Under the pieces are notes generated by a model. The model was given only the letters and a program-made list of their open reading frames with translations, was not told where the DNA came from and ran no database searches. A stretch of 64,000 nt of DNA from contig NZ_CP121445.1 in the NCBI RefSeq assembly GCF_029689925.1, positions 1,853,001-1,917,000 on the forward strand, written 5' to 3'. Position numbers and translations under genes: made by a program. Of this stretch, positions 4,501 through 62,126 are shown in pieces. Positions within the stretch are counted from its first letter, which is position 1; the number at the start of each line of letters is the position of its first letter. This DNA comes from Anaerocolumna sp. AGMB13025. GTDB taxonomy: Bacteria; Bacillota; Clostridia; Lachnospirales; Lachnospiraceae.

Positions 4501-4508
4501 TAGAATAT

Positions 4509-4670
4509 AAGAAGTTCAGAAAAGGTAAGAAGTTAGGAAAGGTAAGAAGTTGAGAAAGGTAAAAAACTAAGAAAAGGTAAGAATCTAAGAAAAAATAAGA
4601 AACCAAGAAAAGGTAAGAAGTTATGAAAAGATAAGAAACCAAGAAAAAATTAGAAGCTAAGAAAAAGATA
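4509..4670 (+). repeat. A/G-rich tandem array, about 18-bp unit, 9 copies
   Basis: Imperfect copies of AAGAAGTTAAGAAAAGGT, 17-19 bp each, run from just after the permease stop. The + strand is almost entirely purine. The array lies inside the importer operon, between the permease and binding-protein genes. I see no coding function. Confidence 0.8.
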
Positions 4671-6296: not shown

Positions 6297-6545
6297 AACG
6301 CAGCTAAACTTAAAAACAGATATAAGTTAGTAACTGATAAAGCTAGCACACGGAGGTTATATCTTATAAATTGTTATTGTAAGAGTGTTATATCCATACA
6401 GCAAAACATATATAATCTACCATATTTAAGTGATTGTAGGAGAGTAAAAAACATAAATACTTACTTATATAAATTAAGTAATAATGTAATTATAACTTTC
6501 TATAGGCTACAAAATACAGAAGTTTTATTAATATAGAAGTTACGG

Positions 6546-6616
6546 AAAAAGCTATACAAAGAAAAAGCTATACAAAGAAAAAGATATGCAAAGAAAAAAT
6601 TATACAAAGATAAAAG
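6546..6616 (+). repeat. A-rich tandem array, 16-bp unit
   Basis: About four to five imperfect copies of AAAGAAAAAGCTATAC lie downstream of the binding-protein gene. It is purine-rich on the + strand like the other arrays in this window. Confidence 0.65.
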
Positions 6617-6731
6617 CTATATAAATATAACAGGGAAAGTGGCAGGGGGAAATCTCCCTGTCAGTTTCTCTATAAATAAATACCAGGAAATTAAACGGCA
6701 AATCCGAAAGGAAAGAAACGCCAAAGACTAA

Positions 6732-6941
6732 AGCAGTATTCTGGTATGCTTGGAATCTTTTTGTATTGGAAAGGTTCCCCCTGGAACTTAAACTTGGTGA
6801 ACTGCGCCAAGGAGGAAAAGAGCAACTGTTTGAACGAAGTGAGTTTTGCTCATTTCCTCCTGCTTTAAGCAGTTCACCAAGTTATAGTGACAGGAGGGTT
6901 CTTTCCCTACAAAAAGATTCCAAGCATACCAGAATACTGCT
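6732..6941. repeat. 210-bp inverted-repeat element (MITE-like or long hairpin)
   Basis: Perfect 34-bp terminal inverted repeats (6732-6765 and 6908-6941, from AGCAGTATTCTGGTATGC to TACA at the inner edge) enclose a second, interrupted inverted repeat. Its matching blocks are AACTTGGTGAACTGC and GGAGGAAA.GAGCAA. The central loop is around TGTTTGAACGAAGTGAG. RNA from either strand would fold into a nearly 100-bp stem. There is no coding potential and no obvious target-site duplication. A MITE is most likely; a stable RNA or attenuator ahead of lacI is possible. Confidence 0.75.
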
Positions 6942-8951: not shown

Positions 8952-9020
8952 ATTTTAATATTTGTATACAGTTTCAAGGATACCCTTCTTTTGTGGATAT
9001 CATAATGAGAAAGGTATATT

Positions 9021-9332
9021 AGGAAAGGTTATAAAGTGATTATTAGGAAAGGTAAAATGTGATTATTAGTAAAGGTTAAAATGTGATTACTAGAAAAGGT
9101 TAAATGTGATTATTGGAAAAGGTTAAATGTGATTATTGGAAAAGGTTAAATGTGATTATTAGAAAAGGTTAAAATGTAATTACTAAAAAAGGTTAAAATG
9201 TAATTACTAGAAAAGGTTAAATGTGATTATTAGAAAAGGCTAAAATGTAATTACTAGAAAAGGTTAATTGTGATTATTAGAAAAGATTAAATGTGATTAT
9301 TAGAAAAGGTTAAAATGTAATTATTAGAAAAG
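9021..9332 (+). repeat. Tandem array, 23-24 bp unit, about 13 copies, each with an ATG-stop
   Basis: The unit is close to AGAAAAGGTTAAATGTGATT plus ATT or ACT. Nearly every copy holds an AAAGG Shine-Dalgarno-like run, 4-5 spacer bases, then ATG directly followed by TGA or TAA; one copy has TTG-TGA. There are no unique spacers and no cas genes, so it is not a CRISPR. Confidence 0.85.
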
Positions 9333-9637
9333 TAACAAAATTAATATAACAAGGTAACAATATTAATATACATACCAAGGATACGCATAAGAAGTAACAT
9401 TATTTATAAAAAGAGCTTACATAATTGATAGCTAAGATATCATAAAAAAATATAATGGCATTAACCAATGGTGAAAGAAACGATTGTACCCAAGTCAGTC
9501 AAATTATGTTAAATGAAGAAATGACTTGAATTAATAAAGAGCAGTGTGATAAGGTTAATGAAGGCTTTACCTTCACTAATTAATAAAAGCGTATACATAG
9601 GTGTAAGATAAATGAAACTATAAAAAACAGAAAAGGT

Positions 9638-9784
9638 TGCCGCAAAACGATTCTTACAACTAATCATTTTGTGGCAGTATCGCAGAGCTTGCGATATGCA
9701 ATGGTATTAGTGTGAAATAAAACATTTCACACTTCTTATTTGGGCAGTATCGCAAGCTAGCTTGCGATATGCATGGGTGTTAGT
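9638..9784 (+). promoter_or_regulatory. Structured 5' leader of the kinase gene (four hairpins; recurrent element)
   Basis: Hairpins in order: TGCCGCAAAACGATT with AATCATTTTGTGGCA (9638-9676); TATCGCA with TTGCGATA (9678-9696); AGTGTGAAAT with ATTTCACACT (9709-9733); and the perfect 22-bp palindrome TATCGCAAGC..GCTTGCGATA (9748-9769). It ends in GCATGGGTGTTAGT and the ATG. The skeleton GTGGCAGTATCGC..GCGATATGCAATGGGTG recurs at 22923-23033 and 58200-58367. Function unknown. Confidence 0.65.
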
Positions 9785-11491
9785 ATGAAAAAATTAAGAT
9801 CACAGATATTGATATGGATGGTTGTCCTGATTGTTCCGCTGCTGGCAGTATTGGCAGCCTATAATATATATACCCTGAAAATTCTGAATAAACAGGTAGC
9901 GGCAAATAACAGCGATATTATATCAATTTATGAAAAACCGGTAGTTCAGGATATGGACTATATCAGCTATTCCATGGCCAATGCTATGGCTAATAACTCC
10001 AGTATGCTCCAGTTAAATTATGCAGCAGGATATATGGAAGCTTATATCTGCTGTAATGATATTGCTTCGGATTTTAAAGCTTTGGTCCGGTCGGAACTAG
10101 AAGGTCTTGCAGCCTTAGGGATCAGTAGTCCCAAACATAAGCTTACCAGAATGGTCTACTCGGATGCAGGAAAATATACATATAATGAAAAAGGTGAATT
10201 GAATAATTATTTAGCCTTACTTATGCAGGATGAGGAATGTTACAAGGCGGGCTGGCAGCTGCTTTCTCTGACCAAGAGGGATTACCTGGTAAGAATACTA
10301 AAAAATAATAACGTCTACGTCATAATGGTAATTGATTTTTCCCTTATGACTACACCCCAGAAAGAAGCCGATGAGGTAGAAAGCGGATATCTTGTCTATA
10401 CCACCAAAAGTAATGCCGCTTTAACCATGAAAAAATTTATCAAAGAAAATGATATTGAACTTAAATATTCCTCCGGTGGCTATTATATCTCTGGCAGTAA
10501 AGCCAATCATTATATGATAGTACAAAAAGATTTTCCCTATGCAGGTATCAGACAGTTTTATGTCAGCCCCTATAAAGGCGCTGTCAGATATCTGGATGTG
10601 GTACAGATCTTGCTGATGATTATCACCATAGGCAGTGCTTGTTTTATACCGGTGGGCTTTTATTATATGAAAAAAACACTGTTTAATCCCATGGAATCCA
10701 TGATAACAACCATGGAATCCATCGGCTCCGGCCAAGCAGATGCTCATATGGATGAAAACTATAAAATAGCGGAATTTTTACAGGTGAAAGATACCTTTAA
10801 TGCAATGGTGGATAAAATCAAGGAATTAAAAATCAATGCTTATGAACAGGAGCTGCAATATAAAAATGTCCAGATGCAGTATTTACAGATTCAGATCCGC
10901 CCTCATTTCTTTTTAAATTGTCTGAAAAACATATATGCAATGGCCAATCAGAAACAGTATGACTCCATACAGGAGATGATTCTTTTGCTGTCCCAGTATC
11001 TGAGAAGCCTGTTTCAAATCAATCCGTCTCTGATCAGTATAGAAGAGGAAATAAAAGGCGTGAATACTTACATTGCGTTACAGCAGATGTGCCAGTCAGA
11101 ACCGCCCCAATGTAAGATTGATGTGGACCCGGAACTTTGGCAGTTTAGTATACCTACTTTGTCAATCATTACTTTCATTGAAAATTCTGTGAAATACGGT
11201 GGAGTGTCTGATAAACGGCTGATGATTTCAATCCGGGTGTCAAAGCTGATCAGTGAGACTGATTCTTATGTATGTATTACGATTTTAGATAACGGACCGG
11301 GATTTCCCAGTGATGGATTAAATACCTCAGAAGAACCCTATGATGAGAATTCCAAGGAACATATCGGCATTATTAATATCAAAAAGCGGATTGAATTATT
11401 ATATCATGGAGAAGGAACCCTCCTTTTTAGCAATTCAAACGGAGCATGTGTAGAAATCTATATTCCAATGGACCAAAACGAGGTGAATTAA
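9785..11491 (+). CDS. YesM-type sensor histidine kinase
   Basis: 568 aa membrane kinase. A first transmembrane helix (about residues 8-28) and a second near 275-298 flank an extracellular sensor domain; a HAMP-like linker follows. The His_kinase domain has RPHFFLNCLKNIYAM (phosphorylated His374), and the HATPase region has the N-box FIENSVKYGG and the G-box DNGPGFPSDG. The next gene, one base after the stop, is the matching AraC-type response regulator. Pairs of this sort usually control adjacent sugar importers, here probably the operon at 13362. ATG 9785 is preferred (GGGTG five bases upstream, then MKKLRSQILIW). An in-frame ATG at 9773 adds MGVS and lies inside the conserved leader sequence. 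Confidence 0.9.
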   Translation: MKKLRSQILIWMVVLIVPLLAVLAAYNIYTLKILNKQVAANNSDIISIYEKPVVQDMDYISYSMANAMANNSSMLQLNYAAGYMEAYICCNDIASDFKALVRSELEGLAALGISSPKHKLTRMVYSDAGKYTYNEKGELNNYLALLMQDEECYKAGWQLLSLTKRDYLVRILKNNNVYVIMVIDFSLMTTPQKEADEVESGYLVYTTKSNAALTMKKFIKENDIELKYSSGGYYISGSKANHYMIVQKDFPYAGIRQFYVSPYKGAVRYLDVVQILLMIITIGSACFIPVGFYYMKKTLFNPMESMITTMESIGSGQADAHMDENYKIAEFLQVKDTFNAMVDKIKELKINAYEQELQYKNVQMQYLQIQIRPHFFLNCLKNIYAMANQKQYDSIQEMILLLSQYLRSLFQINPSLISIEEEIKGVNTYIALQQMCQSEPPQCKIDVDPELWQFSIPTLSIITFIENSVKYGGVSDKRLMISIRVSKLISETDSYVCITILDNGPGFPSDGLNTSEEPYDENSKEHIGIINIKKRIELLYHGEGTLLFSNSNGACVEIYIPMDQNEVN

Positions 11492-16920: not shown

Positions 16921-17055
16921 CTTAATTGTGAAACAATACAGTTTTTTGAATAAACCATACAATTAGTAGGTATTTAATAATTTCAGTTGCCCTCTTGGCA
17001 AGATTTAGCTTTAAAAATGTGTTAATTGTATGGTTTATAGAAACAATAATTAAGT
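16921..17055. mobile_element. MITE-like element, copy 1 (degenerate)
   Basis: It aligns with 49766-49861 and with the reverse complement of 49950-50102. Shared blocks are AATTGTGAAAC, GTTTTTTGAATA, CCATACAATTA, CAGTTGCCCT and GGCAAGATTTAGC. Inner arms TAAACCATACAATTA (16951-16965) and TAATTGTATGGTTTA (17023-17037) are perfect inverted repeats; the outer ends are eroded. No coding capacity. Confidence 0.7.
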
Positions 17056-17099
17056 TTTGTTATTGCCAGAATAACAAAATTACACGAAGGGAGAAAATT

Positions 17100-22640: not shown

Positions 22641-22660
22641 TTTCTTCTGGTAGGAGAGAA

Positions 22661-22979
22661 AAGTTGAAAAAAAATACAAATATAGAAAGGATACCACAAT
22701 CTGATTCTTTCAAAAGTTGAAAGAAAATGCAGATATGGGAAGAATACCGTACTGATTCGTTCAAAGGTTGAAAGAAAATGCAGATATGGGAAGAATACCG
22801 TACTGGTTCGTTCAAAGATTGAAAGAAAATGCAAATATAAGAAGAATACCATTAACTGATTCGTTCAAAGGTTGAAAGAAAATGCAAGTATGGGAAGAAT
22901 ACCATTAACTGATTCGTTCAAAGGTTGAAAAGATAATACAGGTATGGATTGAATGCCGTAAACGGATTCTTTCAACCGG
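22661..22979 (+). repeat. Six-unit tandem array, 51-57 bp unit, in front of a lipoprotein gene
   Basis: Units begin RGTTGAAAGAAAATGCA and end GATTCGTTCAAA. Boundaries are near 22661, 22715, 22766, 22817, 22870 and 22923. Each unit's ends are complementary (GTTGAAAG/CTTTCAAC), and an inner TATGG/CCGTA pair is possible, so each can form its own hairpin. One more unit occurs at 58258-58311. The last unit forms the first hairpin of the leader at 22923-23033. Confidence 0.85.
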
Positions 22980-23033
22980 TTTGTGGCGGTGGCGGTAGCG
23001 CCAGCGGGATTGTGATAAGCAATGGGTTTAAAA
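22923..23033 (+). promoter_or_regulatory. Structured 5' leader of the lipoprotein gene (recurrent element)
   Basis: The long hairpin GGTTGAAA..TTTCAACC (22923-22977) is followed by TTTGTGGC, a TGGCG-GTAG-CGCCA hairpin (22990-23003) and GCAATGGGTTTAAAA before the ATG. The order and the flanking words match the leaders at 9638 and 58200. Confidence 0.6.
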
Positions 23034-24107
23034 ATGTATAAAAAGGCATTTGGTTTTCTATGTATCTTCGGTTTTGCAGTTTTGATTACAGCCTGCACTG
23101 GTCATTCTGCGAATAATTCCGAGGTATTTAATAAGATTCATATAGGTATCGTTCAGACTACACAAAATTCAAATCTCAGCTATATATCCTTCTATGATTC
23201 CTCATTGAATTTTTTAAGTGAGAAAAAAATTAAATATGGAGATATGGGGGACGATACACGCCTTCCATTGGTAACAAATGATTCGGTATATGTCGTTCCT
23301 TTAGGTCTTGGTAATCGCAAAGAGCTCAAAATTGCCTTAAAGTTTAATAAGGAAACCTGGCAATATAAGAAACTCCCGATTAATCAGCAGGGTACCCTGA
23401 TGTTTTGTGTGGAAAAAGAAAATCTATATACGACCAATACCTTTAATAATCAGGGAACAATTACTAAGTGCAACACCATAACAAAAGACTTAGAAACCTG
23501 GAGCATGGAAGGCGTAATTATAAGCAGTCTGAAATGCTATGATGGAGTTTTATATGCCTGGGGAACACAATCTGAAAATAATGTAGATCAGCCATACCTT
23601 TTTCTCTTTGATACCAATCCCTTGAAGTTGAGTAAAAAGATTTCTATTGAGAAAAGCGGTTCCTACCAATATGCTTCTTTCAAAAAAGGCAGTGATATCT
23701 ATTTTACTAATAATTACACTACTTATCAGGAACGGGAAGGAAACATACTAAGCAAGTATAATATGAAAACCGGTATAATTGAGAATATTCTTCTCGGGGG
23801 AAATTCACCCTATCAGATTTTTGAATACAAGGACAAACTCTATATTACCCATTGTGATCCTCTATTTCACCAAGGAAATAAAATCACTGTCTATGATTGC
23901 CAGACAGGAAGTCAGACCCTTGTCACTATGGAGAATACGCTGGTACAATGTGAGCTTTACGAGGATTTGCTCTACAGTCGGGATGATCAAAGTCTGTATG
24001 TCTATGATATGAATACATTAAAATTAATAGAGAAAAAAAATATTGAAATTCCCCGCAAGGAAGCTAATATGCATTTCCGGATTGTTGGATTCTTTATCAA
24101 TGATTAA
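23034..24107 (+). CDS. Lipoprotein with probable beta-propeller fold, function unknown
   Basis: 357 aa. The signal peptide ends in the lipobox ITAC (Cys21). The rest is a series of similar beta-rich segments with aromatic blade endings: LYTTNTFN, LYAWGTQ, PYLFLFDT, IYFTNNY, LYITHCD, KITVYDC and SLYVYDMN. This suggests a WD40/YVTN-like propeller outside the membrane. No catalytic motif was seen. ATG 23034 is chosen (MYKKAFGF); ATG 23022 in the same frame belongs to the conserved leader word AATGGGTTT. It stands alone behind the six-unit array, followed by a short AAAGGAAAGTAT-rich stretch (24130-24200). Confidence 0.7.
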   Translation: MYKKAFGFLCIFGFAVLITACTGHSANNSEVFNKIHIGIVQTTQNSNLSYISFYDSSLNFLSEKKIKYGDMGDDTRLPLVTNDSVYVVPLGLGNRKELKIALKFNKETWQYKKLPINQQGTLMFCVEKENLYTTNTFNNQGTITKCNTITKDLETWSMEGVIISSLKCYDGVLYAWGTQSENNVDQPYLFLFDTNPLKLSKKISIEKSGSYQYASFKKGSDIYFTNNYTTYQEREGNILSKYNMKTGIIENILLGGNSPYQIFEYKDKLYITHCDPLFHQGNKITVYDCQTGSQTLVTMENTLVQCELYEDLLYSRDDQSLYVYDMNTLKLIEKKNIEIPRKEANMHFRIVGFFIND

Positions 24108-24271
24108 CAGGGCCATACTATGTTTAATGTCCTAAAGGAAAGTATAAAGGAAAATTAAAAGAAAGTATAAATAAAAGATAAAGGAAAGTATAAAGGCTAA
24201 AAGTTGATATCACCGGCATGAGAGCGTATAATGCTAGTAGAACTTATGTGACAGAAGGTACGAGGTATTAT

Positions 24272-41499: not shown

Positions 41500-41670
41500 A
41501 AAAAAGAAGTAGGGCAAAAAAAGAAGTAGGGCAAAAAAAGAAGTGGGCAAAAAAGAAGTGGGCAAAAAAGAAGTAGGGCAAAAAGGAAGTAGGGCAAAAA
41601 AAGAAGTGGACAAAAAAAGAAGTGGGCAAAAAAGAAGTAGGGTAAAAATGAAGTAGGGCAAAAAAGAGGG
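41500..41670 (+). repeat. A/G-rich tandem array, 15-17 bp unit, about 11 copies
   Basis: Copies of AAAAAAGAAGTAGGGC or its GTGGGC variant run almost without interruption. The opposite strand would read as repeated Phe/Leu/Pro-rich frames, which are artefacts. Confidence 0.85.
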
Positions 41671-42259: not shown

Positions 42260-45200
42260 ATGTTACATAAGGTTAAATCAAATGGAAGTAAATGCTTATC
42301 AATGGTACTAATCCTGGCTATGTTATCCGGTATTATCTTTTCAGTACCAATGACAGCCTATGCAGCAGATTTTACATCGGCTGACTTCTTAAAGACAAAC
42401 GGAACAGTAATAAGAAATAACAGCGGAACAGGGGATATCGTAGATCTTCATGGGACAAACCTTGGAGGATGGTTAATGCAGGAAGATTGGCTTTCCCCAC
42501 TCGGAGGAGGTATTTTAAGTCAAAGCGGATGGACTGCCACCGCTTCGGTTGGCGCGAATCCAGGTAATGCCATTGATGGCAATTCTGGTACCTCCTGGAC
42601 GACAGGTGTGCCTCAGCAGGATGGACAGTGGTTTAAGGTGGATTTTGGTTCTGTGCAGTACTTTGATAAGATTACCTTTGATGCAGGTTCCAGCACGGGA
42701 AATCCTGCCGGTAGTCTGGTGCAGATATCACTTGATGGAATCGGGTGGTCTAATATGCCGGCCGGAACCGTGGAAAATCAGCGTGTTACAGTAACCTGCG
42801 GAGCACAGGCAGCACGCTATATTCTTATATTCCAAAGGGGAAGTAAAAGCAGTCCCTGGTCTATGGCTGAACTCAATGTGTATATGGGCGATGACTATAG
42901 TATGCGAAAAGCATTATATGACCGTTTCGGACAAACTCAGGGAGATGAATTGATTCGTGGATATCAGAATGCCTGGCTTAAGACAAGTGACCTGGATCAT
43001 ATTAAAAACATGGGAATGAATTATGTCCGGGTTCCCATCAGCTGGCTGGAACTGATGGATAGGAGCGGCAACTGGAAGACAAACCCATGGACTCAGCTGG
43101 ATTGGCTGGTGAATAATTGTGAACAAAGAGGTATTTATGTGGTCCTTGACCTCCATGCTTCTCCCGGCGGTGCCAGTCCCTGGGCAAGCAGCGGACAGGC
43201 CGGGCCGAATCCCAACCGGTTATGGACCAATACCTGGAATCAGGATACTACCGTAGCCATATGGAAGAAGATGGCGGAACATTATAAAGGAAATGCAACC
43301 ATAGCAGGTTATGAGCTGGTGAATGAACCGGTATTAGGTTTTCCGGAGACAGAGGATCAGCAGAATCAAAAAAATACATTTTTGAATAGGCTTTATACAG
43401 CGGTTCGGGCAATCGATGCGGAGCATATTATATTTTTCGGAGCACTTGGAAGCCTGGATGCAATCGCTCCGCCATCTGTCTATGGCTGGACCAATGTTGT
43501 GTATACAGCACATCCCTATGCCATGGAGCAGCCTACGAACTGGGATGCCCAGAATGATTTAATTGATGCGAAAATTGATGAAGCGGTTCAATTCCAGAAC
43601 CGTTTTCAGGTTCCTGTTAATTTCGGAGAATACAATTTTTATTTCTTTCATGACCTTTGGGCAAAATGGATGTCTGAAATGAATGAAAATCATATCTCCT
43701 GGGCCAACTGGACCTATAAGGCAAGAGGAAGTATGAATGAAAGCGGAGGTGGTAATTTTGGCTTTTATAACACGAATGTAAATCCCGTACCGGATGTCAA
43801 TCGTGATGATGCCAATACAATTGCCTCCAAATGGAGCAAATTCAGCACAGAGTATTTCACACCGAATACAGAGTTTATCAATGTAGTAAGTCAGTATACC
43901 GGCGGTGCTATTGAGCCTGGCAGAGGGGAGTATGGTAAAACAGGCTGGACGGCTTCGGCCTCGGTAACTGAAACCGGTCAGGCACCGGAAAATGCCTTGG
44001 ACAATGACTATAATACCTGGTGGAGCACAGGTGTAAACCAGGCTAACGGACAATGGTTCCAGGTAGATATGAAGGAGAGTAAAACCTTTGACCAGATTTC
44101 CTTTGAGACCACTTCCGCATATTCCGGTGACTATCCGATCGGTTATGTACTTCAGGTATCAAATGACGAAAATAACTGGTCGACCTTAAAAAGCGGCGCA
44201 GGATTTGGAAACAAAATGGTACTGCAATTTCCGAGTCAGTCCGCCCGTTATATAAAAATCCTGCAAACCGGCTCCAGTACAGAAAAGTGGTGGAGAATCG
44301 GAGAATTCAATGTATACAGCCAGAACATAGCGTTAAATAAAAGCGCCTCAGCTTCTTCCAGCACAACAGGAAATCCAGAAGCTTATGCCTTTGACGGCAG
44401 CAGTGCCACGCGCTGGGAGTCAGCCGCCACGGATACCCAGTGGATCATGGTAGATTTAGCTTCCGCCTACAAAGTAAAAGGTGTCAAACTAAGCTGGGAC
44501 ACAGGAAGCGGAAAGGATTATAAGATTCAGGTATCTGCCGATAATGCGAACTGGACGGATGCCTATACCAAAACAGGGGGTACAGGCGGTACGGAAAACA
44601 TCACCTTTACTACCCCGGTAACCGGTCAATATGTGAGGCTGCAGGGAACCAAAAGGAATTCGGCCGCCGGCTATTCACTGAGGGAGTTCGAGGTTTACGG
44701 CATTGCGGCAGAACCCACACAAAAAGCTAAAACACCGGTTATTAAGCCGGCATCCGGGACCTATGCCATAAAACAGACAGTAAGAATAACCGATGAGACT
44801 CCAAATGCTACCATCCGCTACACCCTGGATGGTTCTGTACCAACTGCAACTGCCGGAACGGTATACACAGGAGCTTTTACCGTATCGGATACAACAACGG
44901 TAAAGGCAATTGCTTATAAAGCCGGAATGAGAATATCCGATACCGCAACCTCTGAAATAACTATTGCAATTCCTACCAAGGTATCAACACCTGTCATAAG
45001 TCCGCCTTCCGGTGTTTACGCGGACGTTCAGACGGTAAGCATTAAGGTGGATACTCCATGCGATACGATTATGTATACACTGGACGGTTCAACACCTACA
45101 GCGGCACATGGAATCGTGTATGACGGCATATTTACGGTGTCTTCTACTACCACAGTGAAAGCGATGGGAATAAGAACAGGATTAGCAGATTCTGACGTAG

Positions 45201-48200
45201 CAACGGCCGTTATAAACATCCGGTCAGTCGCTATTAATCCGCCTTCCGGTCTTAGTGTAACTTCCGCCGCTGCAACTTCTGTCAGCTTAAAATGGGGAGC
45301 GGTATCCAGTACAGCAGGATATAATCTATACAGATCCTTTGCCGCAGCAGGAATCTATACCAAAGTCAACGATGCCCTGATCACTTCAACCAGCTATACC
45401 GATACTGGTTTGGACAGCGCAGCTTATTACTATAAGGTGGCTTCTGTGAATGACAGTGGAGAATCCTTATTATCAGGGACAGTATCCGCGGTAACAACCC
45501 TGGATTTTGGCAATAACGTCAAGATATTTGATCCATCCATGTCAGGTTCGGCTATTCAAACCATATGCGATACCATATTTAATCAAATGCAATACAATGA
45601 ATTTGGTTCTGAACGGTATGCACTCCTGTTTAAGCCCGGTGCCTATAATGCAAATGTCAATGTAGGTTTTTATACACAGGTAGCAGGTCTGGGGCAAAGA
45701 CCGGATGATGTAACCATAACCGGCTCGGTACGCAGCGAAGCGGACTGGAACGGAGGAAATGCAACCATGAATTTTTGGAGATCGGTTGAGAATTTTGCCG
45801 ACATTCCAACCTATTCCGCTAATCCATTAGCTCCTGCAGGGACTGAGACCTGGGCAATATCACAGGCAGCTCCCATGAGGCGGGTTCATATAAAGGGAGA
45901 TTTAATGCTATGGGATCCAAATCCGAACAACTATGACGGCAGCTGGTCCAGCGGAGGATATATAGCGGATTCTGTTATAGACGGTACGATTTATTCCGGA
46001 TCCCAGCAGCAATTTTTTACAAGAAACAGTCAGATGAAAGCCTGGAACGACTCCAACTGGAACATGGTATTTGTAGGGGATACCGGTGCGCCTTCTGACA
46101 CCTATGAAGCCAGAGGATTTACAGTAGTTAATCAGACACCTGTAATCAGTGAGAAGCCATTTCTTTACTTTGACGGCAATAACTACCGTGTATTTGTTCC
46201 AGGACTCAGGAGTAATGCACAGGGAGTTACCTGGCAGAATGGTGTTGGACCTGGAACGTCTCTGTCCCTGGATCAGTTTGTAGTGGCACATCCTGACACC
46301 TCAACAGCAGCAAGCTTAAATCAGGCACTGAAAAATGGAAAGAACATTTTATTTACACCGGGTATCTATCACCTTAGCGAACCGTTAAGAGTAACACAGG
46401 CCAATACCGTTTTACTTGGTCTTGGGCTGGCAACCCTGACCCCGGATAATGGGACTGCCGCTATGACTGTAGCAGATGTTGACGGAGTAAGAATAGCCGG
46501 TATCCTCTTTGAAGCCGGTCTTAATAATTCAAAGGTATTACTTCAGATGGGACCTGCCGCAAGCACAGCAGGCCATTCGGCAAATCCTTCGGTACTTAGC
46601 GACTTGTTCTTCCGGGTTGGCGGAACCGATGCCGGAAAGACAGATCTTTGTGTTGCAATAAACAGCAGCAATGTAATCGGAGATCATTTCTGGGTATGGA
46701 GAGCAGACCATGGAACTGGAGTAGGCTGGACAGAGAACACTGCTAAAAACGGTCTTATTGTAAATGGTAATAATGTAACCATGTATGGCCTGTTCTGTGA
46801 ACATTTTAACCAGAACTGCACAATCTGGAACGGCAACGGAGGCCTTGTATATTTTTACCAGAGTGAAACGGCATATGATGTACCGGATCAGGCTGCTTTT
46901 ATGGATGGAACAGAGTATGGATATGCCTCCTACAAGGTCGCAGATACGGTAACTTCCCATGAAACCTGGGGTATGGGAGTTTATTCTTATTTCAGAGATG
47001 CAGTTGTAAAACTAAACAGTGCCATCCAGTGCCCGGATACTGCAGGTGTAAAAATACATAATGCAACAAGTGTTTTCCTGAATGGAAATGGTGAGATAAC
47101 GCACATTGTCAACAATACAGGCGATACTGCAAAAGCCGGTAATATGAGGAACTTTATTACGGATTATTCCAACAATGCAGAGCAGCCGGATATCACACCC
47201 ATAACCGGTGTGTATGCAGCAGCTCAAACAGTAACGATAACGGATGTAACCCCGGGAACTACTATCAGATACACCGTAGACGGGTCAAATCCGACGGCAT
47301 CGTCTGGAACAATCTATACGGTACCCTTTACGGTATCAGCTGATACCACGGTAAAAGCCATAGCATATAAAACAGGTATGAAGGATTCTTATGTGGCAAC
47401 GTCGGTTATTAAAATTGATACTTCTCTTAAGAATAATATTGCATTAAATAAGACTGGAATTGCTTCTTCCGGATCCGGGTCCCTTGCTTTTGACGGTTAT
47501 ATGGATACCCGCTGGGCATCGGATTGGACAGATTCCCAGTGGATAAGCGTCGACCTGGGTTCAAGCTATAGCGTCACAGGGGTGAAACTTTCCTGGGAGA
47601 CAGCAGCAGGAAAAGATTACAAAATTCAGGTATCAGGAGATAAGGTCCATTGGACGGATGCTTATAAGAAGAACGGCGGCACCGGCGGAACGGAAACGAT
47701 TACCTTCGATGTGCCTGTTATGGGACAATATGTACGAATGCTGGGAACTGCCAGAGCAACAGGTTATGGTTATTCCTTGTGGGAATTTGAAGTAAACGGT
47801 ACGTCGGTTTTAAAAGCGGCGGCACCGGTAATTACACCGGTAACGGGAACCTATCATGCAGCACAGACCGTAACAATCACAGATGCAACAGCAGGAGCAG
47901 TTATACGGTATACAACGGATGGAACAGTTCCATCAGAGACAAACGGGACAATCTATTCGGGACCTTTTACGGTATCTGCTACGGCAACCGTAAAAGCAAT
48001 TGCTTACAAGTCTGGCATTGCAGCTTCGGATATAGTAACCTCTGCAATCACCATATCAGCAATACCTTCCTCACTTAAAATAGAAGCAGAAAACTATATC
48101 AATATGAGTAATGTGGCAGCAGAACCCTGCAGTGATGTTGGAGGCGGACAGAATATAGGCTACATTGACACCGGTGATTGGATGGATTATACGCTTACCA

Positions 48201-49711
48201 TTGCCACAGCAGGAAACTACACCGTAGATTACCGGGTAAACGGATGGAATACCGGAGCACAGATTCAGTTAATGAAAGATAGTAATGTTTTGGCGACTAC
48301 TGGTACTAATACAGGAAGTGTATGGGCAACCGTAACCTCTGATGCCTTTTATTTGGCAGCTGGTACTTATACCATAAGAGTTAATGTGAGTGGTGGTGGC
48401 TTTAATTTCAACTGGATGGAATTCAAACCGTCGACACCAATTGAAAAAGCAGCAACACCGGTAATCACCCCCGCATCAGGAACCTATGGAACAGCACAGA
48501 CAGTAACAATTACAGATGAAACGGCAGGGGCAGCCATACGGTATACAACGGATGGATCAGCACCGTCAGTGACAAACGGGACAGTATATACAGGGATGTT
48601 TACAGTATCTGCTACGACAACAGTGAAAGCAATTGCTTATAAGACAGGCATTGCAGTATCTGATACAGCAATCTCAGTAATCACCATATCAGCAATACCT
48701 TCGTCACTTAAAATAGAGGCAGAAAACTATATCAATATGAGTAATGTGGCAGCAGAACCCTGCAGTGATGTTGGAGGCGGACAGAATATAGGCTACATCG
48801 ACACCGGTGATTGGATGGATTATACGCTCACCATTGCCACAGCAGGAAACTACACCGTAGATTACCGGGTAAACGGATGGAATGCCGGAGCACAGATTCA
48901 GTTAATGAAAGATAGTAATGTACTGGCGACTACTGGTACCAATACAGGGAATGTATGGGCAACCGTAACCTCTGATGCCTTTTATTTGGCAGCAGGCACT
49001 TATACCATCCGGGTTAATATAAGCGGCGGCGGCTTCAATTTCAACTGGATGGAATTCAAACCCTCGGTGCCAATTGAAAAAGTAGCAGCACCGGTAATCT
49101 CCCCTGTATCAGGAACCTATGGAACAGCCCAGACGGTAACAATTACAGAAGCAACAGAAGGAGCAGCGATACGGTATACAACGGATGGAACAGCACCGTC
49201 AGAAACCAACGGGACAATATATGCAGGAACCTTTACGGTATCGGCTACGACAACAGTAAAAGCAATTGCATATAAGTCAGGAATGACAGTTTCTGATATA
49301 GCAGCATCTGCAATCACCATATCAGCAGTACCTTCATCACTCAAAATAGAAGCAGAAAACTATACCAATATGAGTGATGTGGCAATAGAACCCTGCGGTG
49401 ATGTTGGAGGCGGGCAGAATGTCGCATACATCGATACGGGTGACTGGATGGATTATACCATCACAATTACCACGGCAGGAAATTACACAGTAGATTATAG
49501 AGTAAACGGATGGGATGCCGGAGCACAGATTCAGTTAATGAAGGACGGTAATATACTCGCAACAACCGGTACCAATACCGGTAATGTGTGGGCCACGGTG
49601 ACTTCGGAGGCTTTTCATTTAACCGCCGGAACCTATACAATCAGAGTAAATATAACCGGCGGCAAATTTAACTTAAACTGGATGAACTTTAACCTGCTGC
49701 AAGAAGCTTAA
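42260..49711 (+). CDS. Giant secreted multidomain glycanase: GH5 split by a discoidin domain, plus beta-helix and CBM6 modules
   Basis: 2483 aa, signal peptide to about residue 36. The GH5 domain (about 50-545) has acid/base Glu356 (YELVNEPV) and nucleophile Glu457 (NFGEYN). Its start HGTNLGGWLMQEDWLSP resembles exo-beta-1,3-glucanases. A discoidin (F5/8, CBM32-like) domain (about 86-209) is inserted between that first strand and the rest of the barrel. Then come two discoidin domains (557-817), two chitobiase-C-terminal-like repeats (822-989), a fibronectin III domain (991-1082), and a right-handed beta-helix domain (1083-1636; FDPSMSGSAIQ, YALLFKPGAYN, GFYTQVAGLGQ), possibly a second glycanase. 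Another repeat and discoidin domain follow, then three [repeat-CBM6] pairs (1851-2482). There is no LPXTG or SLH anchor, so it is probably released. Likely substrate: beta-1,3-glucan, inferred with the GH81 neighbour. GGAGGG precedes the ATG. Confidence 0.9.
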   Translation: MLHKVKSNGSKCLSMVLILAMLSGIIFSVPMTAYAADFTSADFLKTNGTVIRNNSGTGDIVDLHGTNLGGWLMQEDWLSPLGGGILSQSGWTATASVGANPGNAIDGNSGTSWTTGVPQQDGQWFKVDFGSVQYFDKITFDAGSSTGNPAGSLVQISLDGIGWSNMPAGTVENQRVTVTCGAQAARYILIFQRGSKSSPWSMAELNVYMGDDYSMRKALYDRFGQTQGDELIRGYQNAWLKTSDLDHIKNMGMNYVRVPISWLELMDRSGNWKTNPWTQLDWLVNNCEQRGIYVVLDLHASPGGASPWASSGQAGPNPNRLWTNTWNQDTTVAIWKKMAEHYKGNATIAGYELVNEPVLGFPETEDQQNQKNTFLNRLYTAVRAIDAEHIIFFGALGSLDAIAPPSVYGWTNVVYTAHPYAMEQPTNWDAQNDLIDAKIDEAVQFQNRFQVPVNFGEYNFYFFHDLWAKWMSEMNENHISWANWTYKARGSMNESGGGNFGFYNTNVNPVPDVNRDDANTIASKWSKFSTEYFTPNTEFINVVSQYTGGAIEPGRGEYGKTGWTASASVTETGQAPENALDNDYNTWWSTGVNQANGQWFQVDMKESKTFDQISFETTSAYSGDYPIGYVLQVSNDENNWSTLKSGAGFGNKMVLQFPSQSARYIKILQTGSSTEKWWRIGEFNVYSQNIALNKSASASSSTTGNPEAYAFDGSSATRWESAATDTQWIMVDLASAYKVKGVKLSWDTGSGKDYKIQVSADNANWTDAYTKTGGTGGTENITFTTPVTGQYVRLQGTKRNSAAGYSLREFEVYGIAAEPTQKAKTPVIKPASGTYAIKQTVRITDETPNATIRYTLDGSVPTATAGTVYTGAFTVSDTTTVKAIAYKAGMRISDTATSEITIAIPTKVSTPVISPPSGVYADVQTVSIKVDTPCDTIMYTLDGSTPTAAHGIVYDGIFTVSSTTTVKAMGIRTGLADSDVATAVINIRSVAINPPSGLSVTSAAATSVSLKWGAVSSTAGYNLYRSFAAAGIYTKVNDALITSTSYTDTGLDSAAYYYKVASVNDSGESLLSGTVSAVTTLDFGNNVKIFDPSMSGSAIQTICDTIFNQMQYNEFGSERYALLFKPGAYNANVNVGFYTQVAGLGQRPDDVTITGSVRSEADWNGGNATMNFWRSVENFADIPTYSANPLAPAGTETWAISQAAPMRRVHIKGDLMLWDPNPNNYDGSWSSGGYIADSVIDGTIYSGSQQQFFTRNSQMKAWNDSNWNMVFVGDTGAPSDTYEARGFTVVNQTPVISEKPFLYFDGNNYRVFVPGLRSNAQGVTWQNGVGPGTSLSLDQFVVAHPDTSTAASLNQALKNGKNILFTPGIYHLSEPLRVTQANTVLLGLGLATLTPDNGTAAMTVADVDGVRIAGILFEAGLNNSKVLLQMGPAASTAGHSANPSVLSDLFFRVGGTDAGKTDLCVAINSSNVIGDHFWVWRADHGTGVGWTENTAKNGLIVNGNNVTMYGLFCEHFNQNCTIWNGNGGLVYFYQSETAYDVPDQAAFMDGTEYGYASYKVADTVTSHETWGMGVYSYFRDAVVKLNSAIQCPDTAGVKIHNATSVFLNGNGEITHIVNNTGDTAKAGNMRNFITDYSNNAEQPDITPITGVYAAAQTVTITDVTPGTTIRYTVDGSNPTASSGTIYTVPFTVSADTTVKAIAYKTGMKDSYVATSVIKIDTSLKNNIALNKTGIASSGSGSLAFDGYMDTRWASDWTDSQWISVDLGSSYSVTGVKLSWETAAGKDYKIQVSGDKVHWTDAYKKNGGTGGTETITFDVPVMGQYVRMLGTARATGYGYSLWEFEVNGTSVLKAAAPVITPVTGTYHAAQTVTITDATAGAVIRYTTDGTVPSETNGTIYSGPFTVSATATVKAIAYKSGIAASDIVTSAITISAIPSSLKIEAENYINMSNVAAEPCSDVGGGQNIGYIDTGDWMDYTLTIATAGNYTVDYRVNGWNTGAQIQLMKDSNVLATTGTNTGSVWATVTSDAFYLAAGTYTIRVNVSGGGFNFNWMEFKPSTPIEKAATPVITPASGTYGTAQTVTITDETAGAAIRYTTDGSAPSVTNGTVYTGMFTVSATTTVKAIAYKTGIAVSDTAISVITISAIPSSLKIEAENYINMSNVAAEPCSDVGGGQNIGYIDTGDWMDYTLTIATAGNYTVDYRVNGWNAGAQIQLMKDSNVLATTGTNTGNVWATVTSDAFYLAAGTYTIRVNISGGGFNFNWMEFKPSVPIEKVAAPVISPVSGTYGTAQTVTITEATEGAAIRYTTDGTAPSETNGTIYAGTFTVSATTTVKAIAYKSGMTVSDIAASAITISAVPSSLKIEAENYTNMSDVAIEPCGDVGGGQNVAYIDTGDWMDYTITITTAGNYTVDYRVNGWDAGAQIQLMKDGNILATTGTNTGNVWATVTSEAFHLTAGTYTIRVNITGGKFNLNWMNFNLLQEA
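47812..49705 (+). repeat. Three near-identical [chitobiase-C-like + CBM6] cassettes in the GH5 gene
   Basis: Each cassette is about 630 bp (from about 47812, 48445 and 49070). The first two CBM6 copies are almost identical at DNA level, including third positions, and the third is more diverged. Related cassettes lie at 53905-55158 in the next gene. Confidence 0.88.
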
Positions 49712-49765
49712 AATACTGGACGAGAGGGTAAGGGATGCACTCCTTTTCTATTAAAATTATTATTT

Positions 49766-49861
49766 GGTAATTGCGAAACTATTTAGTTTTCTGAATATAC
49801 CATACAATTAATACGAATTTCATAGCTTCAGTGCCCTCTGGGCAAGATTCAGCTTATTCGA
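49766..49861. mobile_element. MITE-like element, copy 2 (left part only)
   Basis: It begins GGTAATTGCGAAAC and keeps CTGAATATACCATACAATTA and GTGCCCTCTGGGCAAGATTC, as in the other copies. It then diverges before any right terminal repeat is reached, so it appears truncated. Confidence 0.7.
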
Positions 49862-49949
49862 TGATTGTCCTGATTTATACCAGTTATACGTTATTTCTTT
49901 ATGCAATGTTTGCCGCATATTGTTTGAAGCATATATAAACAGATTAACA

Positions 49950-50102
49950 GGTAATTGCGAAACACAAATATTGTATTTATATATCATTATCATACAAATA
50001 ATAAAATTTCAGTGCTGAATCTTGCCCGTAGGGCAGCTGTAGCTAGAAACAAGTATTGATTTGTATGATATATTCAAAAAACTATATCGTTTCGCAATTG
50101 CC
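49950..50102. mobile_element. MITE-like element, copy 3 (complete, 153 bp)
   Basis: Terminal inverted repeats GGTAATTGCGAAAC (49950-49963) and GTTTCGCAATTGCC (50089-50102) are accompanied by inner arms built on ATCATACAAAT and ATTTGTATGAT and a central GCCCGTAGGGC hairpin. It lies in the opposite orientation to copies 1 and 2. Confidence 0.8.
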
Positions 50103-50138
50103 TAAATAACCGATTAATACTATGAGGAGGTTAAAGGT

Positions 50139-56757: not shown

Positions 56758-57048
56758 TATGAAACTCCTTTCAAAGTAACCTTTTAATCCGTTGTTTTGC
56801 TCTATCCTTTACCTTTTTCTTTATAATATATAAAGCCATAAGCGGAAATAGTATAGGTTTACTGATAGCTTCCGGTAACTTCTGGAAACTTTATGTACTA
56901 TAAGTATAAATATAGTATATCGAGTCTGTATAAGTCAAATTAACAATTCTTTAAAAGAATATTACAATATTCTGACGAAATTAATACTCAAGAATTACAT
57001 TATGTGGAATAATTGAAAAAAATTATGTGGAATAACTGAAAAAAATTA

Positions 57049-57077
57049 TTGACAATGTAGAGGTATGGTAATATTAT
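57049..57077 (+). promoter_or_regulatory. Promoter of the second LacI-family gene
   Basis: Perfect TTGACA (57049-57054), a 17-bp spacer and TATTAT (57072-57077). Two A-rich 22-bp repeats just upstream could act like UP-elements. Confidence 0.8.
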
Positions 57078-58199: not shown

Positions 58200-58367
58200 C
58201 AATAGGGAAAAGTTTGTGGTGGTATTGCAAGTAAACTTGCAATATGCGATAGGTGAAGGTTGAAAGAAAATACAAGAGTAGAAAGGATGCCACATTATGA
58301 TTCTTTCAACCAGTTATATTTGTGGCAGTATCGCGAGTAAACTTGCGATATGCAATGGGTGTAAAAT
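58200..58367 (+). promoter_or_regulatory. Structured 5' leader of the MalQ-GlgP gene (recurrent element, duplicated)
   Basis: TTGTGGTGGTATTGCAAG-TAAA-CTTGCAATATGCGATAGGTG is followed by a long hairpin GGTTGAAAGAA..TTCTTTCAACC (58258-58311). A second copy follows, GTGGCAGTATCGCGAG-TAAA-CTTGCGATATGCAATGGGTG, ending 6 bases before the ATG. The GGGTG may be the ribosome site. The middle unit is a copy of the repeat at 22661-22979. Confidence 0.68.
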
Positions 58368-61300
58368 ATGAGAAAAGCTGGAGTTTTAATGCCGGTAGCT
58401 TCCCTTCCCTCCGATTATGGGATTGGGGATTTTGGAAAGTACAGCTATCAGTTTATTGACATTTTAAAGAAAAGCCATATACGTATATGGCAGATTCTCC
58501 CTATAAATCCTTTGGGATATGGAGAATCACCGTATCAGCCCTATTCGTCCTTTGCAGGGGATGAATTATACCTTGATTTAGCCAGGTTATATGAGGAAGG
58601 ATTATTAGAGGAACTGCCGCCGGCTTTTCGAAAAGGAACCAGTAAGATCAGTTATCAGGAAGTGAGGACATATAAAGAGGATTATTTAAGGCAGGCTTTT
58701 TTAAATTTTATACCGGATAACTCATATGAGGAGTTCACTAAGCAGGAATGGGTTTACTTATATGCTGTTTATCTTACCTTTAAGAAAAAAAATCAGATGA
58801 AATGCTGGAATGAATGGGAGGAAGTACATAAGAACTGGATAAAAGACCGTAGTTTTGATGAGAGTATTTATGATGGAGATATCCGGTATGAAATGTTTCT
58901 TCAGTATGAATTTTATCGTCAATGGATAAGCTTAAAGGATTACGCCAATGCTTCTGGAATTCAAATTATGGGGGATATTCCTTTTTATGTGGGTATCGAT
59001 TCACTGGATGTATGGGGAAATCAGGAGGACTTTTTATTAGACAAGGATGGACACCCGATTTTTATCGCCGGAGTACCGCCTGATTATTTCAGCAGTACAG
59101 GACAAAGATGGGGAAATCCGATCTATAACTGGGAACACATAAGAGAAAACGGATTTGGTTTCTGGTTGAATCGAATTGCTTACAATTCCAGGCTGTTTGA
59201 TATTATACGGATTGATCACTTCAGGGCTTTCGATACCTACTGGAAGATTCCGGCATCCTGTGAAACTGCAATAGAAGGGGAATGGACCCAGGCTCCCGGA
59301 TATGAATTATTTGACCGGCTGTTTGAAACCCTCCCAGATATTTCTATTGTAGCGGAAGATCTGGGGGAGATGAGACCCCAGGTATATCAGTTAAGGGATC
59401 ATTTTGGTTTAAAAGGTATGAAAATCATACAGTTCACCTTCGATCCATTAGAAAATAACAACAATTTTATTGACCGGGAAAATATGATTATATATACCGG
59501 AACCCATGATAATGAGACCATACTTGGATGGTTTGAGAACCAGTCCGGGCAGATCCAGAATGAAACTGACCTAAAACTATACTCTTTCGGGTATGATACC
59601 GGTTCCATTTCCCATCGGTTCATCCGCTATACGCTGGATAATATAGCAGATACTGCCATTATACCAGTGCAAGACATTTTGGGATTAGGTAACGAAGGAC
59701 GGCTGAATACACCAGGAACGTTAGGTTCCCCCAACTGGGAATGGAAACTGGATAGCCTGGATAAATTGGAAAAGCAAGCAGAATTCCTGGCAGAAGCAGT
59801 ACTTGAGAGCAAAAGAGCAGGAGATATTACCACTGTAAGTAAAAAGATCGAGGATCCCATAAAGCTTCTTTCCAGATTATTGGAACAGCAATATGGAAAG
59901 ACCATAGAACAATGTACAAAAAAGCAGCTGCTTTTTGGGTTGATTAGTATGACAAAGCGCCTCGCGGCGGTTAAGGAAGTTGTAAAAGATAAGAAAAAAC
60001 TGTATTATATTTCAGCCGAATTTTTAATCGGAAAATTGGTGTCAAACAACCTTATTAATTTAGGTATTTATGATGAGATAAAGGAATTGCTGTCTTTACA
60101 CGGACAGAATATATCAGAGATAGAGGAAGTGGAACCGGAGCCATCCTTGGGCAATGGAGGACTTGGGCGTTTAGCTGCCTGCTTCCTGGATTCCATAGCA
60201 AGCCTTGGTCTTGCCGGTGATGGCATTGGACTGAATTATCATTTCGGTTTATTTAAACAGCAGTTTGAAGATAATCTCCAAAGAGAAGAGAAAAACCCAT
60301 GGATCGAACGAATGAGCTGGCTGACGAAAAGGGACCGCAGCTATGAAGTGGAGTTTAATGGGTTTAAATTAAAATCTGTCCTCTATGATATTGATGTCAT
60401 TGGATATCAAAACCGTACCAACAAGCTTCATTTATTTGATACGGAGTTGGTGGAGGAAAGTCTGGTAAAGGAGGGAATTGATTTTGATAAAGAGGATATT
60501 AAGAAAAACCTGACTCTTTTCTTATATCCGGATGACAGTGATGAAGCCGGACAGCAGCTGCGTATATTTCAGCAGTATTTTATGGTAAGCTGCGGAGCAC
60601 AGTATATTCTGGAAGAATCCATAAGCAGAGGAAGCAGCCTGCATGACCTATATGAGTATGCCGTTATACAAATCAATGATACCCATCCCAGCATGGTAAT
60701 TCCCGAGTTGATCCGTTTACTGACGAAACGGGGGATCAGTATGGACGAGGCAATTGATATCGTATCCAAGACCTGTGCCTATACCAATCATACCATCCTT
60801 GCGGAAGCCTTGGAAAAGTGGCCCCTTGATTATTTAAAGAAGGTAGTACCGCAGCTAGTCCCGATCATAGAAGTGCTGGATAACCGGGTAAGGAGAAAAT
60901 TCAATGACGATAAGACCGTAATTATCGATAAACAGGACAGGGTGCATATGGCTTCTATGGATATCCATTATGGATTTAGCGTAAATGGTGTTGCTCACCT
61001 GCATACCGAGATATTAAAGTCACAGGAATTAAATCAGTTCTATAAACTTTATCCTGAGAAATTCAATAATAAGACCAATGGTATTACTTTTAGGCGTTGG
61101 CTGCTGCATTGCAACACAGAGCTTGCCTCATACATTGAAAGCCTTATTGGAAACGGCTTCAAAAAGGATGCTATGGATTTAGAAAAGCTTATGGAATTTC
61201 GTGGAAATGAAATGGTATTAAATAAACTTTTGAATATTAAATATAAGAACAAGCTAAAGTTGAAAGACTGGTTATACAAAAACCAAAAAGTTGAAATTGA

Positions 61301-62126
61301 TGAAACTTCAATCTTCGATATCCAAATTAAACGCCTCCATGAATATAAACGCCAGCAAATGAATGCTTTGTACGTCATACATAAATATCACGAAATAAAA
61401 AGCGGCAAATTGCCTGCTAGACCGGTTACTGTTTTTTTTGGAGCGAAAGCTGCACCAGCTTATGTTATTGCAAAGGATATCATTCATTTGATTCTCTGCC
61501 TCCAGGAGCTGATTCTAACAGATGCAGAAGTGAGTCCGTATCTTAAGGTTGTCATGGTGGAAGATTATAATGTCTCAAAAGCAGAGATGCTGATACCGGC
61601 CTGTGACATCTCGGAGCAGATATCCTTAGCCTCCAAAGAAGCCAGCGGTACCGGTAATATGAAGTTTATGCTAAATGGAGCATTGACTCTGGGTACATTA
61701 GATGGAGCAAATGTAGAAATCAGTGATTTAGTGGGAGCAGATAATATTTACCTGTTTGGGGAAACAAGTGATCAGATTATTAATCATTATCAAAAGGCAG
61801 ATTATGTAGCCGAAAAATATTATCAAATAGATGGTGATATTAAAAAGTCACTGGATTTTATTATCAGCGACCAGATGTTAGCCATTGGTAAAGAAGAAAA
61901 CCTTGTAAGGCTTTATAAAGAGATTCTAAATAAGGATTGGTTTATGTCCTTACTGGATTTTAAAGATTATGTAAGGGTTAGGGAATTGGCCTATCACGAC
62001 TATGAAGACCGTTTAAACTGGGCTGATAAAATGTTGGTTAATATCAGTAAAGCCGGATATTTTTCTTCTGACCGCACCATTGCCCAATACAATCAGGATA
62101 TATGGAAATTAAATAGGGATATATAA
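58368..62126 (+). CDS. Fused 4-alpha-glucanotransferase / glycogen phosphorylase (MalQ-GlgP)
   Basis: 1252 aa, cytoplasmic, two complete enzymes in one chain. Residues 1 to about 480 are GH77 amylomaltase: [11 protein letters not shown], Asp283 (RIDHFRAFD), Glu330 (VAEDLG), Asp381 (GTHDNET) and [13 protein letters not shown] roughly 40-residue linker leads to GT35 phosphorylase, 520-1252: [49 protein letters not shown] and [20 protein letters not shown] with pyridoxal-phosphate Lys1099. The phosphorylase start is intact ([16 protein letters not shown]). MalQ disproportionates maltooligosaccharides and GlgP releases glucose 1-phosphate, so the fusion channels alpha-glucan breakdown. Fusions of this kind are, to my knowledge, known in some clostridia. 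It is controlled by the upstream LacI through 57085/58147, and possibly by the leader at 58200. Confidence 0.95.

Follow-up and report, generated by a model that had tools for sequence, protein, structure and literature searches.

The question raised by this locus is why one structured sequence should stand immediately in front of three unrelated genes. The window, by which we mean the whole stretch of 64,000 nucleotides of Anaerocolumna sp. AGMB13025 DNA that was analysed, had been described in a first-pass annotation as containing three related multi-hairpin leaders. All three were confirmed, and an ATG follows within a few bases of the end of each (at 9785, 23034 and 58368 respectively), while the motif GCGATATGCAATGGGTG occurs four times in the window with up to three mismatches against 0.09 occurrences expected by chance. 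The proposal that they are copies of a shared element also stands, on a far larger scale than was claimed, as at least 147 copies are present genome-wide. The element is about 109 nt long and folds into an H-type pseudoknot followed by a hairpin. Stem P1 (GGTTGAAAGAA/TTCTTTCAACC) carries in its loop the sequence TGCCACA, which forms P2 with a TGTGGCA located after P1; hairpin P3 (TATCGCAAG/CTTGCGATA) and then TGCAATGGGTGTAA follow, with an SD (Shine-Dalgarno)-like GGGTG, usually 2–3 nt, and the ATG.

Copy 3 is the canonical, full-length form (58255..58364; all features of the window copies are on the forward strand) and scores 126.6 bits with R1, a covariance model of P1 and P3 that was built without the ATG. 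Its P1 5' arm, GGTTGAAAGAA at 58258..58268, pairs with TTCTTTCAACC at 58301..58311, as indicated by alignment and covariation. The P1 loop holds a conserved GAAAGG (58281..58286), complementary to the 3' tail of 16S rRNA (CCTTTC), and the P2 5' arm TGCCACA (58288..58294), which pairs with TGTGGCA at 58321..58327 to make the pseudoknot. The P3 hairpin, TATCGCGAG-TAAA-CTTGCGATA, occupies 58329..58350, and the element-borne SD-like GGGTG (58357..58361; 16S 3' end GGATCACCTCCTTTCT) lies 6 nt before the ATG at 58368 of a putative MalQ-GlgP type gene (58368..62126), a function named by the earlier annotation. A partial unit precedes this copy at 58213..58254, consisting of a P2 3' arm, P3 and the SD-like tail (blastn match at genome positions 1911213-1911255). 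Copy 1 is a degenerate array of two units. The first (9603..9710, genome 1862603-1862710) scores 63.5 bits with R1 and is also recognized by its fold, with P2-type arms TGCCGCAAAA/TTTTGTGGCA, a P3 hairpin TATCGCAGAGCTTGCGATA and the end GCAATGG; the second (9710..9779) is truncated, is not among the listed R1 matches and was assigned from its sequence and fold, comprising a P1-like hairpin GTGTGAAAT/ATTTCACAC, GGGCAGTAT, a palindrome as P3 and an SD-like GGGTG at 9775-9779. This palindrome, reported earlier as a perfect one of 22 bp, is 22 nt in total (9748-9769, 11+11), and the exact GTGGCRGT...TGCAATGGGTG frame attributed to copy 1 is absent next to the start codon. The gene behind it, at 9785..11491, encodes a YesM-type sensor kinase (Pfam His_kinase, PF06580). 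Copy 2 (22920..23031, 60.5 bits with R1; start codon at 23034) is degenerate, its normal P3 having been lost or replaced, and it directly follows an array of P1-only modules at 22659..22919 with a period of 51–53 nt (detected as a tandem repeat at 22659-22930, period 53). Copies 1 and 3 fold better than shuffled sequences (z −7.1 and −5.9, 0 of 200 shuffles folding as well), whereas the fold of copy 2 is not clearly better (z −1.34; 21 of 200 fold as well).

Beyond the window, the count of at least 147 copies in the 6.8-Mb genome of this strain (6,817,888 bases, one contig) is a lower bound obtained by scoring 150 candidates with R1, the best match having an E value of 7e-23. A blastn search of the same genome with copy 3 returned 71 matches on both strands, of which 52 cover most of the query by hand count and some are in tandem with a period of 106–110 nt. 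Among 98 genomes, this one included, 19 had a blastn match at E<=0.01; 14 of the 19 belong to the same genus and the other five matches are weak (E 6e-4 to 0.007). R1 found matches in 15 of 15 genomes of the genus, with 30–147 in 13 of them and three each in the other two (G003 and G004). A scan of 299 Lachnospiraceae genomes, with stricter filters and 12 candidates per genome scored, gave 15 genomes with a match at E<=1e-5, including the present one and one congener; the element is present in 13 genomes of other Lachnospiraceae genera and the model matches span 14 genera. One of these genomes, taken as Robinsoniella peoriensis, has 115 matches of two lengths, about 109 nt and about 78 nt, and in five others (G158, G055, G315, G202 and G224) all 22 matches that were read are of the short form. 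In this form the P1 hairpin lacks the pseudoknot arm and is followed by a GTGGCAGTAT-like stretch, then P3, the SD-like tail and, in most cases, the ATG. A search of the open-licence PMC texts found no description of such a start-codon-placed element, and as a small interspersed structured repeat it therefore appears to be undescribed, in this placement, within the literature searched.

The stems are maintained by compensatory change. In an alignment of 39 units, 11 of 27 base pairs show changes on both sides and 96.7% of cells can pair, compared with 38–46% when the arms are slid against each other; with 90 distinct sequences from outside the window, aligned with the model, both-sided changes extend to 19 of 27 pairs and 95.3% of cells pair, a level reached by 0 of 500 shuffles. 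As an alignment made with the model leans towards the structure, a plain, structure-free MAFFT alignment of 160 sequences of less than 90% identity was also used, and the top six column pairs by corrected mutual information (columns at least 4 apart) all fell in P1 or P3. P2 is nearly invariant within the genus, three of its seven pairs having one both-sided change each, and it varies across genera (TGCCCA/TGGGCA, TACCACAA/TTGTGGTA, TGCGCAGA/TTTGCGCG and TGCCATAT/ATATGGCA). For 16 cross-genus sequences the P2 arms scored 17.4 with their own partner, against 14.1 with swapped partners (maximum of 300 swaps, 16.7) and 11.8 when shuffled; in two of the 16 the best P2 has just 4 bp and a 5-bp P2 is absent. 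By its compensatory stem changes and its fixed position at start codons, the element belongs to the broad class of structured cis-acting RNAs. A subfamily has an extra hairpin, GTGAAAC-TTG-TTTCAC, between P1 and the P2 3' arm (genome positions 45344, 76242, 379971, 569164, 643384 and others).

The position relative to genes was read for all 147 copies. As 21 are directly followed by another unit, 126 are terminal, and in 113 of these a sense open reading frame of at least 50 codons starts at −4 to +5 nt of the element end; the spacing is 2 nt in 71 and 3 nt in 31 (102 together), and the start codon is ATG in 111 and GTG in two. Among the 13 other terminal copies the first ORF start is 16–30 nt off in three and there is none within the 55 nt scanned in ten, five of which run into a second leader family described below, one being the first unit of copy 1 and one a P1-only array. 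At the control position, the other end on the opposite strand, a start lies at −4 to +5 in two of 147 cases, within 55 nt in 19 and nowhere in that distance in 128. In a second species, for which 1.6 Mb of genome G009 was scanned, an ORF begins within −2 to +5 nt in 37 of 47 R1 matches (E<=0.01), and in other genomes the figure is 108 of 122 at 2–4 nt, which is biased in that the loci were chosen by motif and some sites were counted twice via two collections. Consistent placement before start codons and compensatory changes in the stems had been put forward as supporting signs for these leaders; both were found, and together they identify an RNA-level element tied to start codons, so the earlier view that this is not a random repeat holds. 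Initiation at the internal ATGGG was considered and rejected: this triplet varies (AAG, AGG, ACG, GTG) and is out of frame at the 3-nt spacing, and the ATG after the element was therefore taken as the start. The ORF listing picks the in-frame ATGGG at 9773 and 23022, so that the kinase frame is listed as beginning 12 nt earlier, within the leader. Since 20 of 125 first units begin no more than 30 nt after the stop of an upstream open frame (at least 100 codons), many copies are situated within operons and would exert their effect on the mRNA.

It could be asked whether the element is itself translated, with the native SD driving initiation at a TTG or GTG at the start of P1 and translation continuing through the element, coupled to the gene. 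NTGAA[AG]G is found at the P1 start in 112 of 147 copies (TTG in 81, GTG in 22, CTG in 5 and ATG in 4), the frame from there has a median open length of 26 codons, and seven of 87 frames end on the ATGA of the gene. However, 53 of the 87 reach a stop codon within the element, upstream of the GGG, and the gaps that separate nearest relatives are mostly of 1 nt (144 of 187), with the net frame kept in 25 of 105 gapped pairs, so the P1 frame is not conserved. A conserved leader peptide was rejected on this basis, and we regard this upstream-frame explanation as highly unlikely.

Two parts of the element are complementary to the 3' end of 16S rRNA, for which the tail GGATCACCTCCTTTCT has one occurrence in the genome. 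GGGTG can pair with the CACCT portion of this tail through five pairs, one of them G-U, and a match of at least 6 nt to AGAAAGGAGG is present in the P1–P2 loop of 84 of 109 non-redundant copies (shuffled mean 8.4, maximum 17). The SD-like tail reads GGGTG or GGGTA in this genome; in other genera, the short form has GGAG or GGGG in most cases. Median duplex energies of the tail are −6.3 for the long form, the weaker SD, and −8.55 for the short form, and GGAG, GAGG or GGGG occurs in the tails of 22 of 126 long forms versus 17 of 22 short forms, which lack a GAAAGG-type loop. The loop match and the tail strengths fit a split SD, although common ancestry could by itself have preserved the loop. 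In a report on extended SD sites in Staphylococcus aureus, GGGT and AGGT count as SD motifs and extended anti-SD pairing proximal to the start is described (PMC13009471); the GGGT-type motif is common to both cases, but there it is a property of ordinary mRNAs and here it is supplied by a dispersed insertion. Accessibility was computed for 130 of the 147 copies, 17 being dropped in which the arms or the SD were unrecognized. Blocking the P2 3' arm raises the computed accessibility of the SD from 0.43 to 0.63, and in copy 3 the fold of minimum energy has P3 lengthened across the SD. The median accessibility within the 3' domain is 0.42 for native sequences versus 0.33 with shuffled linkers. A selected, SD-sequestering switch was rejected, as native copies are more sequestered than those with shuffled linkers in just 48 of 130 cases.

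The genes that follow the element have little in common. Of 113 downstream proteins listed, 30 were scanned against Pfam (29 behind model-scored copies and the copy 1 kinase), and these include a MurG-type glycosyltransferase, MurB, GatB, GidB/RsmG, PurH, an aminotransferase, ArgJ, HPr, SecD, a NifH-type protein, a FliQ-type protein, PHO4, SfsA, CobU and a type III pantothenate kinase, with one protein having no Pfam match at 1e-8. The functions span the cell wall, tRNA amidation, purine and arginine synthesis, the PTS, export, rRNA methylation and more, and no linking pathway was seen among the 113 listed N-termini and the 30 Pfam scans. This bears on whether the copies form a metabolite-binding riboswitch class with a large regulon. 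A pseudoknot and hairpin directly before the SD is a common riboswitch layout, and preQ1 and SAM-II riboswitches, which control translation, have H-type pseudoknots near the SD in the 5' leader, as the element does; tandem copies also exist, in that 21 of 147 are directly followed by another unit. Against this reading stand the functional diversity of the scanned genes, a copy number above 100, best-match orthologs in the sister species that mostly lack the element (see below) and the Rfam searches. Within the window there was no Rfam match at the gathering score, and in seven loci searched at E<=5 nothing near the gathering score coincided with the element, the lone overlap with units being a sub-threshold snR49 match on the opposite strand of locus L333 (22.8 bits for a gathering score of 45, E 1.2). 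We consider it most improbable that the element is a riboswitch.

Comparison with orthologous sites gives a different picture of how the element came to lie where it does. For 98 clean first units, the 22 nt upstream contain anti-SD complementarity of at least 4 nt in 60, compared with a shuffled mean of 37.9 (maximum 49 of 300 shuffles) and 24–35 in five control windows; for at least 5 nt the numbers are 31 of 98, a shuffled mean of 16.7 (maximum 27) and 10–17. The 49 copies left out of this test are preceded by a unit (22), a P1 module (13) or unit-like remnants (14), and as 38 of the 98 first units have no upstream match of at least 4 nt, the SD signal is enriched but not universal. Orthologs were then defined as best tblastn matches of at least 60% identity in the 1.6 of 5.4 Mb of G009 covered, so that some are possibly paralogs. 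The element is present at two of 18 such orthologs of element-preceded genes (two of 20 with two further matches at 50–53%) and, for further genes taken from other genomes, at 0 of six, a seventh row being G009's own copy. In two of the 16 'empty' orthologs, those of the copies at 6391465 and 6013682, the ATG is preceded by short stretches that resemble the element, go unscored by R1 and are possibly remnants. When DNA was aligned across the joined flanks, nagB read gaaaggtacaggt(a)[element]acATG versus gaaaggtacaggtgacataaaATG at the empty site, and gatB read aaggaggcg[element]attATG versus aaaggaatgcaaagtATG, the SD being kept in both; at murG the element is absent at the orthologous site and the SD is not clearly kept. 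To judge from these alignments, the empty gatB and nagB sites place the element between a native SD and the start codon. At loci that were picked as carrying the element, sites can be shared: the permease gene at 169681 also has it in L089, and L034 and L038 have it before the same gene. L037 and L097, likewise picked as carriers and an orthologous site with flanks 90% identical, have two units of different subfamilies versus one, and the extra unit of L037 sits between GGGTGTA and AACATG. As the units differ, insertion is the simpler reading of this pair, and deletion between the GGGTGTA repeats is possible.

Near-identical copies also occur at distant positions. A copy at least 90% identical lies more than 2 kb away for 51 of 147 copies, and one at least 95% identical for 25. 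Of the 147 copies, 131 have their nearest neighbour within this genome, and overall 171 of 237 have theirs in their own genome (shuffled mean 95, maximum 123); for sparsely sampled genomes it is so in three of 12 (MB42-C2) and 0 of three (A. sedimenticola). With nearly identical units at loci that are unrelated, and with orthologous sites that are empty, the element would fall into the broad class of dispersed mobile elements. A search of viral contigs with one exact element pattern gave 0 matches.

Bacterial genomes harbour several kinds of dispersed structured repeats between genes, among them REP/BIME (with their RAYT transposases), ERIC and Correia elements. One alternative is that the element is a common MITE or REP-type DNA repeat, positioned as it is just because insertions elsewhere are selected against. 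Dispersal, structure and near-identical copies are as expected for such a repeat, and the tandem modules are reminiscent of BOX elements. However, no terminal inverted repeats were seen by eye (the ends AAAGGTTGAAAG and TGCAATGGGTGTAA are not inverted repeats of each other), no target-site duplication was seen at the three empty sites, where the junctions come from alignments of about 76–77% identity, and Y1 transposase (PF01797), the one mobilizer family searched for, had 0 matches in this genome whereas five of 14 control genomes were positive. In addition, 113 of 126 terminal copies are in sense at start codons, even though silent intergenic and 3'-end sites should tolerate insertions, and the compensatory changes operate at the level of RNA. 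An ordinary DNA repeat is for us a decidedly improbable source of the pattern. REP elements in particular differ from the element in their RAYT association and in lacking its sense placement before the ATG and its RNA pseudoknot. Background on REP/BIME, ERIC and Correia elements is provided by passages of PMC3049150, which treat pneumococcal BOX as a short, many-copy, modular element with an RNA-level fold that is likely parasitic and likely affects co-transcribed genes. By description, BOX (with RUP and SPRITE) resembles the element in being an interspersed, many-copy repeat with an RNA-level fold and repeated internal modules. It differs in that no confinement to the interval between SD and start is described in those passages (PMC3049150), whereas units of the present element carry an SD-like sequence and end a few nucleotides before the ATG, and their pseudoknot is supported by covariation.

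We propose that the element is probably a dispersed, mobile-like structured RNA that lies in sense directly before start codons, often between the native SD and the ATG, and brings its own ribosome-binding site. Its placement, a structure with covariation, its absence at most of the orthologous sites examined and the near-identical copies before unrelated genes are directly supported. Insertion would move the native SD about 110 nt upstream, and the gene would then be translated from the SD of the element, which would thus act as a portable ribosome-binding site that the host tolerates. Arrays may build up as further units land in the newest SD–ATG interval. The pseudoknot and conserved GAAAGG loop would probably serve to adjust or assist binding of the 30S subunit, not to detect a metabolite. 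In a bolder version, which we think unlikely, this is a new class of mobile RNA that targets the initiation region: the loop AGAAAGGA and the tail GGGUG, held side by side by stacking of P2 on P3 as a split Shine-Dalgarno sequence, would let transcripts bind the anti-SD of the 30S subunit, and these transcripts would be copied at the RNA level, by reverse transcription or template switching, into the SD–AUG intervals of other genes.

A functional translational control element, with the pseudoknot or hairpin recognized by a protein, the 30S subunit or a trans-acting RNA and the copies co-regulated, is a tentative alternative to which we give a lesser but appreciable chance. It is compatible with a mobile-like, SD-bearing element; the copies could perhaps descend from a mobile repeat that has been domesticated. 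In its favour are the presence of model matches in 14 genera, with the structure kept by compensatory changes, the conserved loop (the AGAAAGGAGG match in 84 of 109 copies), the stronger SDs of the loop-less short forms and the rise in computed SD accessibility when the P2 3' arm is blocked. The genes, on the other hand, have no common theme, occupancy is shared with the sister species at two of 18 sites, and the SD-sequestering alternative fold is no better than with a shuffled linker (48 of 130). The cis-regulatory RNA suggested in the first-pass annotation therefore stands as to an RNA-level element linked to start codons; a classical cis-regulatory RNA does not fit well with this lack of a theme, with the seldom shared orthologous sites, with near-identical copies before unrelated genes (51 of 147) and with two empty sites at which the element is wedged between an existing SD and the ATG. 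A regulatory role is possible on these sequence comparisons.

Interspersed repeats in bacteria are generally regarded as passengers between genes. In this genome a conserved RNA fold stands in sense before the start codons of more than 100 genes, including housekeeping genes such as gatB and those of murG, murB and gidB type, and at many of them it lies downstream of an SD already present and offers a ribosome-binding site that could replace it. If the portable ribosome-binding site that we propose is correct, the element would be a natural source of translation-initiation modules, and in some Lachnospiraceae a repeat would determine where translation of many genes starts. It raises the question of which machinery can recognize the SD–ATG interval as a target for insertion.

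A second structured leader family is found behind five units of the first, with at least 32 matches genome-wide when 40 of 53 candidates were scored. Its pattern is GTTGAAAAATAAATTTTTCAAC ... CACCACAAACTTGGTATGCGC ... AGAGGTTAATATG, at L198:1113-1210 and 31 further places in this genome. An ORF start lies at the end of 25 of 26 matches read, several have an SD directly upstream (ctaggaggattag, ctaaggaggatag), and GGAG, GAGG or GGGG is just upstream in 10 of the 13 that are neither truncated nor preceded by a unit (hand count). The layout is the same, with a native SD at many sites, the element, a new SD and the ATG, and at least two families in this genome follow the rule.

Hairpins of the GATGCCGC...GCGGCATCATGACGG type, or their 3' half (CATCAT..CGG), stop right at the 5' edge of several first-family units (genome positions 379971, 495600, 2667726, 4663218, 6013682 and 6244647; loci L031, L040 and L049). 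In the window, short tandem arrays with periods of 12–23 nt, several of them purine-rich, lie between genes at 4508-4665, 6545-6625, 9017-9332, 24133-24196, 41500-41667 and 56999-57049. AT-rich inverted repeats (GTAATTGCGAAAC...) at 16924-17068 and 49763-50105 can pair with each other across the window, and similar sequence is found upstream of genes in L036 and G009. At 6732-6941 there is a perfect 34-bp inverted repeat whose arms are separated by 142 nt and enclose another inverted repeat, resembling a small palindromic insertion. Two very large ORFs of 2483 and 1673 amino acids (42260-49711 and 50139-55160) contain direct repeats of 633 nt.
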